Assembly: GCF_963668385.1 (NCBI RefSeq)
Contig: NZ_OY764327.1
Coordinates: 248,001 to 312,000 of the forward strand
Reading direction: 5' to 3'
Source: an uncultured Carboxylicivirga sp.
GTDB taxonomy: Bacteria; Bacteroidota; Bacteroidia; Bacteroidales; Marinilabiliaceae
DNA: 64,000 nt
Made by a program: the position numbers and the translations under genes. The notes under the pieces were generated by a model. The model worked only from the letters and a program-made list of their open reading frames with translations, was not told the origin of the DNA and did not search any database. Positions within the stretch are counted from its first letter, which is position 1; every line of letters begins with the position of its first letter. Below are positions 16,274 through 20,015 of the stretch, in pieces.

Positions 16274-16395
16274 CTATAATGTACAGGGTAAATTAAACGA
16301 TCATCAAAAAAAAACAACATGAGTAATAATCTGTATCTGATAAAGAATCAAAATCAAAGCAGTTATTAATATCCCGTTAAAAACCTTTGCTATTT

Positions 16396-17043
16396 ATGCT
16401 TAAAAAAGAACGCTATCAGCGCACCATCGAATATTTTCAAAAACACATGCCGGTTGCCGAAACAGAATTGCATTACTCAAATCCCTACGAGTTATTAGTT
16501 GCTGTAATATTGTCGGCTCAATGCACCGATAAAAGAGTAAACCAGATAACACCGGCTATTTTTGAACGTTACCCAAGAGCCGAAGATTTAGCAGAGGCCA
16601 CTCCTGACGAAATATTTGAGCTGATTCGTTCGTGTAGTTATCCTAACAACAAAAGCAAGCATTTGGCCGGCATGGCAAAAATGTTGGTTAATGATTTTAA
16701 CAGCGTTGTTCCCGATGATATTAATCAACTGCAAAAGCTACCCGGTGTGGGGCGAAAAACAGCCAATGTTATCGCATCGGTAGTGTACGAAAAGCCAGCT
16801 ATGGCTGTTGATACGCATGTTTTTAGAGTAGCTGCCCGCATTGGTTTAACCACCAACTCAAAAACACCCCTCGACACCGAAAAGCAATTGGTTAAGAATT
16901 TTCCTGAAGATTTACTCCCAATTGCCCATCATTGGCTGATTTTACATGGCCGATATGTGTGTATTGCCCGCAAACCCAAGTGTGGAAAGTGCGGATTGAA
17001 AGACTTTTGCAAATATTTTGAACAACAAACTATCAATGCGTAA
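16396..17043 (+). CDS. nth: Endonuclease III (DNA glycosylase/AP lyase)
   Basis: A base-excision-repair glycosylase for oxidised pyrimidines. The helix-hairpin-helix LPGVGRKTANV carries the catalytic Lys (about K121) and is followed by AVDTHVFRV with the catalytic Asp (about D139). The C-terminal 4Fe-4S loop is intact, with spacing C-x6-C-x2-C-x5-C (CIARKPKCGKCGLKDFC). The frame is open to a TTG at 16387, but the ATG at 16396 gives the usual start MLKKERYQR and a 215-residue protein, normal for Nth. The gene is followed by a 2.3-kb gene-free region. Confidence 0.95.
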   Translation: MLKKERYQRTIEYFQKHMPVAETELHYSNPYELLVAVILSAQCTDKRVNQITPAIFERYPRAEDLAEATPDEIFELIRSCSYPNNKSKHLAGMAKMLVNDFNSVVPDDINQLQKLPGVGRKTANVIASVVYEKPAMAVDTHVFRVAARIGLTTNSKTPLDTEKQLVKNFPEDLLPIAHHWLILHGRYVCIARKPKCGKCGLKDFCKYFEQQTINA

Positions 17044-17120: not shown

Positions 17121-17237
17121 TTTGATATATACCCCATAAATATTGCATCTTTGTAGTAGGGATTTTCATAAAAATTGGATTTAGTTAGCTGATTTAAGGG
17201 TAAGGACAGATTTTTCGATCTGTCCTTTTCTTTTTTA
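17121..17237 (+). ncRNA. Small RNA cassette, copy A
   Basis: A promoter-like pair (TTTG at 17121, CATCTTTG at 17146-17153, 21-base spacer) precedes a short region. It contains the core TTGGATTTAGTT (17175-17186) and GATTTAAGGGTAAGGACAG, ending in a terminator: stem AAGGACAG / CTGTCCTT followed by a T-rich tail. The predicted transcript is about 75-80 bases (from about 17160). The same core, spacing and terminator recur at 18804-18898 and 18930-19053. There is no ORF inside. The RNA family is not recognised; an Rfam search is needed to tell whether it is known. Confidence 0.6.
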
Positions 17238-17298
17238 TATCCCTCATTGTCGATTATTCGATTATCAATGTCCCGATTTTTCAATTGAGCGATTAACT

Positions 17299-18690
17299 TA
17301 CAATACAGTCGCCCTTTCAGGGCTTCAATTTACATAGCGTATTACACAGCACTCCACTTCGACTAGCTCAGTGTCGTACTGTGCTACTACAGTCAGGCTT
17401 ACAGCCTTCTTTTAACTGCTGCATCACATGCACCAAGTCAAAGTTCAAAAGGGAAATAGCTATATAATTGATAACAGTCTAACTGCTGAGTTTTATTTTT
17501 TTAATTGTCGATTTGTTGAATTGCATAACTGTTGAGGCTATCAGCCAAAGGCTAGTAGCTAAAAGCTAAGAAGTCCCGCAGGGACGTTTATACAAGCATA
17601 GTACGTAAGTGCTATGTATACGAATTCATCATGCCCATAAGTCCTGGAAGGACGTCTGTTATTATGCACCAAGTCAAAATTTATATAATTAATTGTTTAA
17701 AACGGACTCCGGACTTATAGCTCCGGACTTTTAATATTAATTCGTAGAGTTGTATAATTGCCATGCACTAAGCACTGCGCACAAAGCACAAGAAATATAG
17801 CTTCGGACTCTTCCGTCTCCGGTCTTCCATCTTCGTGCTAATAACTATTGACAGTCGCCCCTGCAGGGCTCCTATTTACAATACCTATTACACAGCACTC
17901 CACTTCGACAAGCTCAGTGTCGTACTCTGCTGCTACAGTCAGGGCTACGCCCTTGTTCTAACTACTGCATCATATTCACCAAGTCAAAAGTTATTAAGTC
18001 AAAGTTCGAAACGGAATAATCATCGGTGGATAACGTTAAGCGAAATAAGCTATCAGCCAGAGGCTAGTAGCTAACAGCTATGCAGTCCCGCAGGGACGTT
18101 TGTATTAGCATAGTACGTAAGTGCTATGTATACGAATTCATCATGCCCATAAGTCCTGGAAGGACGTCTGTTATTATGCACCAAGTCAAAATTTATATAA
18201 TTAATTGTTTAAAACGGACTCCAGACTTATAGCTCCGGACTTTTAATATTAATTCGTAGAGTTGTATAATTGCCATGCACTAAGCACTGCGCACTAAGCA
18301 CAAGAAATATAGCTTCGGACTCTTCCGTCTCCGGTCTTCCATCTTCGTGCTAATAACTATTGACAGTCGCCCCTGCAGGGCTCCTATTTACAATATCTAT
18401 TACACAGCACTCCACTTCGACTAGCTCAGTATCGTACTGTGCTGCTACAGTCAGGGCTACGCCCTTGTTCTAACTACTGCATCATATTCACCAAGTCAAA
18501 AGTTATTAAGTCAAAGTTCGAAACGGAAATAATCATCGGTGGATAACGTTCAGCGAAATAAGCTATCAGCCAGAGGCTAGTAGCTAACAGCTATGCAGTC
18601 CCGCAGGGACGTTTGTATTAGCATAGTACGTAAGTGCTATGTATATGAATTCGTCATGTGCATAAGTCCTGAAAGGACGTTTGTAATAAA
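17299..18690 (+). repeat. Tandem array of the mosaic repeat (unit about 512 bp)
   Basis: About two and a half units lie head to tail. The first (from 17299) is diverged, the second runs from about 17841 to 18352, and the third from 18353 to about 18690 is truncated. ATAACTATTGACAGTCGCCC recurs at 17841 and 18353, a period of 512. The second and third are almost identical by eye. Each unit holds short hairpins in fixed order: GCCCCTGCAGGGC, CAGCACTCC...GTGCTG, AGGGCTACGCCCT, a GCTATCAGCC/GGCTAGTAGC stem, GTCCCGCAGGGAC, AGCATAGTACGTAAGTGCTATG, AGTCCTGGAAGGACGT, GGACTCCGGACTTATAGCTCC. ORFs crossing it are repeat-derived. Confidence 0.9.
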
Positions 18691-18803
18691 TGGAAAACCA
18701 ACCAAACTCAATAGATCTTAAATTATTTCTCAACATGACTTAACTGCCTCAAAATCTTAACACGAATTAACTTTGCTTGAGTTTTGTTCACTATAATTTT
18801 AAT

Positions 18804-18898
18804 GATATTTGTTATGTAGATTTTTTTTCATAGATTTTGGATTTGGTTAACGAACTGGTAAAAAAAGGACAGGTTATTATGATCTGTCCTTTTTTTTG
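18804..18898 (+). ncRNA. Small RNA cassette, copy B
   Basis: The second copy of the cassette seen at 17121. A -7-like GATATTTG (18804-18811) is followed by TAGATTTTTTTTCATAGA and the core TTGGATTTGGTTAACGAACT (18837-18856). The terminator stem AAAGGACAG / CTGTCCTTT lies ahead of eight T. It lacks the GATTTAAGGGT segment of the other copies. Upstream, AACACGAATTAACTTTG and TTGAGTTTT are shared with copy C, so the promoter region is conserved as well as the transcript. Confidence 0.6.
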
Positions 18899-18929
18899 AC
18901 CTATAGCGATTTAACATGAATTAACCAAG

Positions 18930-19053
18930 TTTGAGTTTTCTTTACTGAATAAGTTCGCATATTTGCACTGTAGATTTTTATTCATAGATTTGGATTTAGT
19001 TAACGAACTGATTTAAGGGTAAGGACAGGTTTTTATGATCTGTCCTTTTTTTA
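18930..19053 (+). ncRNA. Small RNA cassette, copy C
   Basis: The third copy, 70 bases after copy B. It has TTTGAGTTTTC (18930), a -7-like CATATTTG (18958-18965), then TGTAGATTTTTATTCATAGA, the core TTGGATTTAGTTAACGAACT (18990-19009), GATTTAAGGGTAAGGACAG and the terminator CTGTCCTTTTTTT. AGTTAACGAACT can form a small hairpin, as in copy B. The predicted transcript is about 80 bases. Tandem copies with retained promoter and terminator argue for selection at the RNA level. Confidence 0.6.
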
Positions 19054-19313: not shown

Positions 19314-20015
19314 ATGGATAATCTGTTTTTACAATACATGAAAGAAAGATCCGGACAGCCAAAAAACAGTGGATCGCGAAAAAAGAACGGAGGTCCGGTA
19401 GTTACCATCTCGCGCGAATATGGTTGTCATGGACAACGCATTGGACAGTTACTTGCCGAACGTATTAACGTAGAACTTCGCAAAGAGGGTATTAGAAAAG
19501 AATGGCGCATGATAAGTAAAGAAATTTTGGAGCGTTCAGCCTCGGAGCTTAAACTTACATCGGCACTATTAGAAGATTTGAGCGACTATCGGCAAAAGAG
19601 TTTTTTCGAAAACCTTGCATTGTTTTTTAGCAGTTCGTATTACCCGGGCGACGTTAAGATTAAAAATACCATTGCAAAATTTTTACACGACGAAGCCGAA
19701 GTTGGTAATGTGGTTATTATTGGACGTGCCGGAGAAGCCATCACTAAAAATATCAAAAAAGCACTGCACGTTAAAATGGAAGCTCCACTAGACTGGAGAG
19801 CCGAAATTGTTTCGAAAGACGAAAATATTAGTATCAGCGATGCTAAAAAACGATGCATCGAACAAGATAAACGACGAGCCAGCTTCAGAGATTATTTCGA
19901 AAAAGACAGGCCTGATGTTGATTTCTTTGATATTCGCATTAATGCCATGAGCATGACGGACGAAGAAATTGTAAATTTGTTGTTCTGTTTTGCCCGTTCA
20001 CGAAACTTTTGGTAA
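19314..20015 (+). CDS. Cytidylate kinase-like family protein
   Basis: A 233-residue P-loop-type kinase of the cytidylate-kinase-like family found widely in anaerobes. The N-terminal nucleotide-binding segment reads VVTISREYGCHGQRIGQLLAERI (about 28-50). A mid-protein segment VVIIGRAGEAITK (about 134-146) and the arginine-rich lid (KRCIEQDKRRASFRDYFE) match the family. It is distinct from the housekeeping CMP kinase and its physiological substrate is not established. It stands alone on the plus strand, converging with the fructosamine kinase gene only 5 bases away. Confidence 0.85.
   Translation: MDNLFLQYMKERSGQPKNSGSRKKNGGPVVTISREYGCHGQRIGQLLAERINVELRKEGIRKEWRMISKEILERSASELKLTSALLEDLSDYRQKSFFENLALFFSSSYYPGDVKIKNTIAKFLHDEAEVGNVVIIGRAGEAITKNIKKALHVKMEAPLDWRAEIVSKDENISISDAKKRCIEQDKRRASFRDYFEKDRPDVDFFDIRINAMSMTDEEIVNLLFCFARSRNFW

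Follow-up and report, generated by a model that had tools for sequence, protein, structure and literature searches.

The closest described counterpart of the RNAs analysed here is FopS of Bacteroides thetaiotaomicron, described in 2025 as a Bacteroidaceae system that switches off glycan uptake at the level of translation (PMC11697453). FopS RNAs have the same layout as those found here, occur in 12–15 copies per genome and have sigma-ABfr promoters; they bind the protein RbpB and, by base-pairing around the AUG, repress susC translation, an effect that RbpB counteracts. It was a BLAST search that led that paper to describe FopS for Bacteroidaceae. GibS, another Bacteroides sRNA, has the R1 seed and the RbpB association in common with FopS, and differs from the RNAs studied here in being single-copy and in having two seeds and promoter motif PM2 (PMC11697453); it was matched by none of our models. 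DonS-type PUL RNAs of Bacteroides fragilis likewise repress a glycan-uptake locus (PMC11697453), but they are encoded in cis, opposite their target, while the RNAs studied here are encoded in trans. The literature surveyed, which included few subscription papers, held no description of these RNAs outside Bacteroidaceae, nor of sigma-54-driven FopS-like RNAs.

The DNA analysed (hereafter, the window) is a 64,000-nucleotide stretch of contig NZ_OY764327.1 (positions 248,001 to 312,000) from an uncultured Carboxylicivirga sp. It contains three cassettes, A, B and C, which are likely to encode trans-acting, FopS-like repressors of SusC translation of ∼80 nt.

The array and its conservation

Inspection of the sequence found a promoter box, a core and a terminator hairpin in each of the three cassettes, at the places given by the first-pass annotation. 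The -7-like boxes have the form ANNTTTG, the core TTGGATTTrGTT is found in all three copies, and hairpins of the form AAGGACAG/CTGTCCTT followed by T-runs lie at 17202–17237 (A), ∼18865–18897 (B) and 19021–19052 (C). The common upstream sequence reported for copies B and C is present as well. The features of the region are as follows, bit scores being those of covariance model R1, built from the window-type RNAs alone, or of the FopS model:

16387..17043, + strand, endonuclease III-like gene nth, flanking the array on its upstream side (Pfam HhH-GPD, E 4.9e-26)
17147..17153, + strand, -7-like promoter box of copy A, CATCTTTG form (from sequence)
17157..17237, + strand, sRNA copy A, short 5′ variant, start approximate (stem 17202–17227; R1, 88.4 bits)
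17305..18687, no strand assigned, direct repeats with 512-bp spacing between A and B, outside the RNA genes (repeat search)
18805..18811, + strand, -7-like promoter box of copy B (from sequence)
18816..18897, + strand, sRNA copy B, start approximate (terminator ∼18865–18897, from the fold; R1, 82.3 bits; FopS model, 22.0 bits)
18959..18965, + strand, -7-like promoter box of copy C (from sequence)
18970..19052, + strand, sRNA copy C, start approximate (stem 19021–19047; R1, 97 bits; FopS model, 22.1 bits)
19314..20015, + strand, cytidylate kinase-like gene (PF13189) immediately following the array, a candidate for a linked target (Pfam, E 4.7e-26)

The proposed tandem layout holds for copies B and C, whose starts are 155 bp apart, but not for A and B, which are not adjacent; their starts are separated by 1662 bp because ∼1.57 kb carrying direct repeats spaced by 512 bp intervenes. 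The spacing is 154–174 bp in the three relatives whose array is still flanked by nth on one side and cmk on the other. Of the two variants, copy A has the shorter (GGGATTTTCATAAAAATTGGATTTAGTTAG--CTGATTTAAGGG) and B and C have the long one, GTAGATTTTTTTTCATAGATTT(T)GGATTTRGTTAACGAACTG. A terminator pattern scan of the region returned 14 terminator-like sites, against 1.5 expected from shuffles; the hairpins of A and C were listed among them, and that of B, absent from this listing, is nevertheless plain in the predicted fold.

The repeats between A and B consist of units of 138–300 nt spaced by 512–546 bp, with many short palindromes (e.g. GTCCCGCAGGGAC). Tandem Repeats Finder, whose period limit was 500 against a repeat spacing of 512, reported none in the region. 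Sub-threshold matches to Acido-Lenti-1 (31–36 bits, cut-off 37) were obtained on the minus strand at 17572–17616, 18084–18128 and 18597–18641; since these fall within the repeats and outside the RNAs, Acido-Lenti-1 was discarded as their identity.

Conservation extends beyond the genome of origin, as expected of the selected family that the first-pass annotation had suggested. A search with copy C matched 54 of 100 related genomes, namely the source genome itself, all 13 others of the genus and 40 of the 46 others of the family; no match came from the 40 genomes that represent other families of the order. When copy A was used to search its own genome, copy C and two further copies were recovered (E 4e-13 to 2e-20), copy B not being among the matches at E <= 0.001. 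Given these matches within and between genomes, the cassettes cannot be attributed to chance. The long-variant pattern was found in 40 stretches of named genomes, which include Carboxylicivirga, a member of Marinilabiliaceae, and Marinilabilia, Saccharicrinis, Geofilum, Anaerophaga, Alkaliflexus, Alkalitalea, Breznakibacter, Natronoflexus and Thermophagus, genera that we take to belong to the same family; it was also found in Marinilabiliaceae isolates and MAGs, in three MAGs labelled Bacteroidales and in one labelled Cytophagaceae. The nearest flanking genes are those of Carboxylicivirga linearis (90% for nth, 86% for the kinase gene). A single scan of viral contigs with one exact window-type pattern gave no match, and phage spread was set aside as an explanation.

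The 62 distinct copies collected from relatives aligned well. An ANNTTTG box was present in the heads of 60 of them, compared with 605 of 6200 shuffled heads (9.8%); the strict form TAnnTTTG was seen in 12 of the 62, and four of the five window-type copies of the source genome have the relaxed box. The consensus structure is a single 10-pair terminator hairpin in which six pairs show at least one change on both sides. In the alignment of the 62 copies no consensus structure was found in the 5′ 50–60 nt, and in the predicted folds of single sequences most of this 5′ part is weakly paired. A protein-coding role was rejected: the longest ORF comprises 8 closed codons, or 20 open codons running into the terminator. 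On sequence grounds, small-RNA genes are the best reading of A, B and C, each of which has a Bacteroidota -7 box, a 5′ part of ∼50 nt and an intrinsic terminator. The idea of a selected small-RNA family retaining promoter, core and terminator thus gains support from the comparative data (relatives, box, covariation and synteny).

Fourteen copies and two promoter classes

Two further window-type copies lie at 2.672 Mb of the same genome, bringing the window type to five. Model R1 recovered these five (82–97 bits) and, in addition, nine relatives of a second type (L084–L090, L092 and L094; 27–47 bits, E 8e-6 to 0.15), an identification also backed by promoter and terminator; the genome therefore contains 14 RNAs of the two types. 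Second-type RNAs are shorter, consisting of GATTTTTTTTCATAGATTTGGGTTAGGTTAATAA plus a terminator, and have ∼30 nt of 5′ sequence in common with the window type. Two additional R1 matches were left out of the copy count because they run antisense to SusC start regions: L091 (E 0.015) and L093 (E 0.11). At L091 (genome positions 144363–144458, + strand) and L075, a FopS-like antisense stretch with a terminator-like hairpin lies directly opposite a SusC start; it could be a cis-antisense RNA like DonS.

The two types differ in their promoters. The element TGGCAN6TTG corresponds to the -24/-12 consensus of sigma-54. It was found in all nine second-type copies, 29–33 nt upstream of the T-run, and in none of the five window-type copies, while no sigma-ABfr-type promoter was recognised in the nine. 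Its background frequency is low (8 of 2800 shuffled upstream sequences; 11 occurrences in 800,000 strand-bases of the same genome, i.e. 0.001 per 70 nt). The genome encodes sigma-54 (E 4.2e-54), and sigma-54-type elements have been reported in the phylum in a paper on F. psychrophilum. Stretches of other genomes picked solely by weak blast matches yielded nine more second-type copies, from six genomes of two genera; seven of these have the strict sigma-54 element and two a form that differs from it by one letter, and the remaining seven RNA-like rows of that blast-chosen listing, which are of other types, have none. Canonical FopS loci of other families showed a relaxed -7 box within 60 nt in 31 of 34 cases and a sigma-54-like string in one.

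Further variants were seen in passing. At L118 (C19 of G014, a genome of the window's family) several weak model matches with the core AAGGGTTAAGGTTAGGTTA stand in a row; they may represent a third type of RNA, one with different promoters. A third variant, CCTGGATTTAGTTAATCGGTTTTA, with different terminators, occurs at L025 (1860–1945), L031 (1336–1402) and L033 (1162–1244).

Relation to FopS

The first-pass annotation had left room for a known Rfam family; no family reached its curated cut-off in the window (0 matches at gathering). At relaxed thresholds, snoR138, MicC, the L20 leader and other implausible families appeared and were judged to be chance matches. FopS (RF04319) was retained from this set because it aligned end to end with two copies: C scored 22.1 bits and B 22.0 bits, where the cut-off is 56, with an E value of 0.3 over 301 bases. 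Copy A was missing from the matches even at the relaxed threshold.

The likeness to FopS lies in the order of parts, with a terminator hairpin after an anti-start 5′ part that is probably single-stranded, in copy number (14 here and 14 in B. thetaiotaomicron), in the sigma-ABfr-type promoter of the window type, in the presence of an RRM protein and in the predicted pairing with SusC starts. The differences, apart from the score of 22 bits against 56, concern the seed, the arrangement and the promoters. In place of the FopS R1/R1′ seed GAUUUAAGGUUAAU, the window type has the core GAUUURGUUAAC plus a second element, CUGAUUUAAGGGUAA, and the second type has (G)GGUUUAGGUUAAU; unlike FopS, the window arrays are tandem and linked to nth and the cytidylate kinase-like gene, and nine relatives in the same genome carry sigma-54-type promoters.

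Searches with the different models addressed kinship. Among 295 genomes of the class, RF04319 found matches at E <= 0.001 in 11, including G014, in which two loci were matched both by a window copy (E 1.6e-16 and 2.3e-14) and by RF04319 (E 7–8e-4). In the opposite direction, R1 matched 21 of 25 canonical FopS loci in the right place at E <= 0.05 (21–28 bits) and missed or nearly missed the other four (L109, L111, L113 and L115). These R1 matches are suggestive at most, since the reverse strand of a true copy scores 25.5 bits with R1, and since FopS-model matches outside the order (37–44 bits) include plain antisense of start codons. A joint model, R2, was built from the window type, the second type and FopS. 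Applied to 393 genomes of the order, it gave matches at E <= 0.001 in 111, of which 75 reached 1e-6 or better; in a sample of 296 genomes of the phylum it matched six (three in the order, three weak). As FopS went into R2, most of its matches are canonical FopS. When 20 loci were examined at the Rfam FopS cut-off, 11 passed, from 11 different families of the order, indicating that canonical FopS is not restricted to one family; none of the eight loci of the window's family did so.

Our best guess, by analogy, is that the window RNAs work like FopS, although by the Rfam test they are not members of that family. Whether the two are related by descent is a separate matter, on which the sequence link is suggestive. 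The resemblance may also reflect convergence, RNAs that cover the start regions of signal-peptide genes coming to resemble UUUUUCAUnnAUUUnnnGUUAA; this concerns descent only, is compatible with a FopS-like repressor, and we regard it as a serious possibility that we do not favour. Consistent with convergence, two loci outside the order, L257 and L259, are antisense to ORF starts (MKN...), the former (identical to L116) reaching 43.9 bits even with the FopS model and the latter being matched with R2. Antisense of SusC starts was likewise picked up in the source genome (L091 and L093), the bridging matches in G014 are no stronger (38 bits), and the R1 scores on FopS loci are of the order of that given by the reverse strand of a true copy. 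On the other hand, the RNAs agree with FopS in length and copy number as well as in promoter type and the order of their parts, the G014 copies are matched by window copy and FopS model alike, and the two RNA types of the source genome have their ∼30 nt of 5′ sequence in common.

Predicted targets

The 5′ part of the RNA resembles the reverse complement of a start-codon region (leader-AUG-AAA). The genome contains 46 SusC genes over the cut-off and one RRM_1 protein (E 2.2e-22). Pairing was computed for the start regions of 45 of the SusC genes (one lacks a start), with start codons picked by eye, and for a control set of 263 other genes, drawn from the window and from 20 stretches, each of 20 kb; for these controls the first ATG was used. 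Over positions -30 to +20, with the kinase gene left out of the controls, copy C gave a mean of -17.1 kcal/mol for SusC (n = 45) and -12.5 kcal/mol for the other genes (n = 262; P = 1e-7), values that ignore intramolecular structure and that would understate the pairing of controls with a wrongly chosen ATG. The difference was also clear for copy B (P = 1.8e-6), whereas copy A showed a weaker preference and barely separated SusC from controls (P = 0.022). Among the 31 top-ranked of 308 start regions, 4.5 SusC genes were expected; the number observed was 18 for copy C, 17 for B and 9 for A. Over -40 to +30, the SusC and control means were -16.9 and -15.0 for A (P = 0.015), -18.7 and -14.8 for B (P = 1e-5) and -19.2 and -14.6 for C (P = 5e-7); two second-type RNAs gave -16.0 and -12.4, and -17.4 and -12.4 (P = 3.5e-7 and 1e-9). 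Against a subset of 85 signal-peptide-like genes the preference persisted (P = 0.027, 2e-4 and 2e-5 for A, B and C; 4e-5 and 8e-7 for the second type). For each of these five RNAs, none of 200 dinucleotide-shuffled RNAs reached the SusC mean, and reversed RNA gave -11.2 to -11.4. The duplex spans the AUG in 43 of 45 SusC genes and in 247 of 263 controls, so it is the strength of pairing that discriminates. A genome-wide scan for an exact-like seed target returned 12 matches, five of them the RNAs themselves, versus seven for the reversed control, which is not significant on its own.

The window has the cytidylate kinase-like gene (Cytidylate_kin2) directly downstream of the array and in the same orientation, as do 28 of the 40 loci from other genomes. 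Several of the 12 loci with no kinase match are cut by contig ends; L141, L147, L166, L167 and L177 have no match despite sufficient room. The nth gene was found in six of the 40 loci and cmk on the opposite side in three, and a HAD-hydrolase query over the loci found no match. It could be argued that the array chiefly regulates the adjacent kinase gene, the SusC signal being a by-product of generic anti-start complementarity. The kinase start region ranks second of 308 for copy C (-33.0 over -30 to +20), and over -40 to +30 its pairing reaches -39.9 kcal/mol, a value attained by none of 200 shuffled RNAs, though part of the -40 region is probably the gene's own promoter and so untranscribed. 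Across 29 loci, the kinase start regions averaged -20.6 and 136 other genes in those loci -16.9, a difference whose P value (9e-5) is optimistic because the loci are related; the kinase ranked first in its locus in 15 of the 29 (7.1 expected; one locus had no competitor) and last in four (L171, L155, L150 and L165). Its pairing fell within 10 of 200 shuffles in 13 of the 29 loci (mean z -1.8) and was not below that level in the other 16, being poor in several species. The variant TATTCAT, the best fit to ATGGATAA, is found in the gene-adjacent copy of five loci, all with ATGGATAA, and these look like one clade, pointing to a single inherited event. Moreover, two more window-type copies and nine relatives lie elsewhere in the genome, and the SusC enrichment would require a separate explanation. 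Regulation chiefly of the kinase gene is therefore unlikely. That the cassettes form a tandem leader or attenuator of the downstream gene, and not stand-alone RNAs, is highly improbable: they do precede the kinase gene in the same orientation and a terminator ends each copy, but nine of the 14 copies face an oppositely oriented gene (by mechanically called ORFs) and so are not general leaders, the pair at 2.672 Mb is convergent with the neighbouring gene, and conservation falls on the 5′ stretch, which is probably single-stranded, while no alternative anti-terminator came to light.

Under the preferred reading, that of FopS-like repressors of SusC translation, each copy would be transcribed from its own sigma-ABfr-type promoter up to its intrinsic terminator, giving an RNA of ∼80 nt. 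The anti-start 5′ half, UUUUUCAUAGAUUUGGAUUURGUUAAC, would pair across the AUG and the A/U-rich leader of target mRNAs, mainly those of SusC-like glycan transporters, and would block initiation in a phylum that has no Shine-Dalgarno step to interfere with. A likely partner or antagonist, by analogy with RbpB and FopS, is the RRM protein that the genome encodes, and the several copies would provide dosage and a fast response to a presumed signal.

The sigma-54-type promoters of the nine relatives and the kinase linkage of the array go beyond published FopS and are unexpected to a specialist. We tentatively suggest, while holding it doubtful as a whole, that a two-armed family of anti-start-codon RNAs governs SusC translation in this lineage, with a sigma-ABfr housekeeping arm and an arm dependent on sigma-54 and an enhancer activator, that one array also gained a second seed and the kinase target, and that such RNAs may recur from antisense transcripts of susC starts. 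If so, a phylum that lacks Shine-Dalgarno sites would have come upon anti-start RNAs as a solution more than once. A 14-copy FopS-like family in a non-gut genome, with arrays and two promoter classes, would make control of this kind far wider than the Bacteroidaceae system; the two promoter classes would show how it is wired to different signals, and lead to the testable prediction that sigma-54 controls SusC translation via small RNAs.
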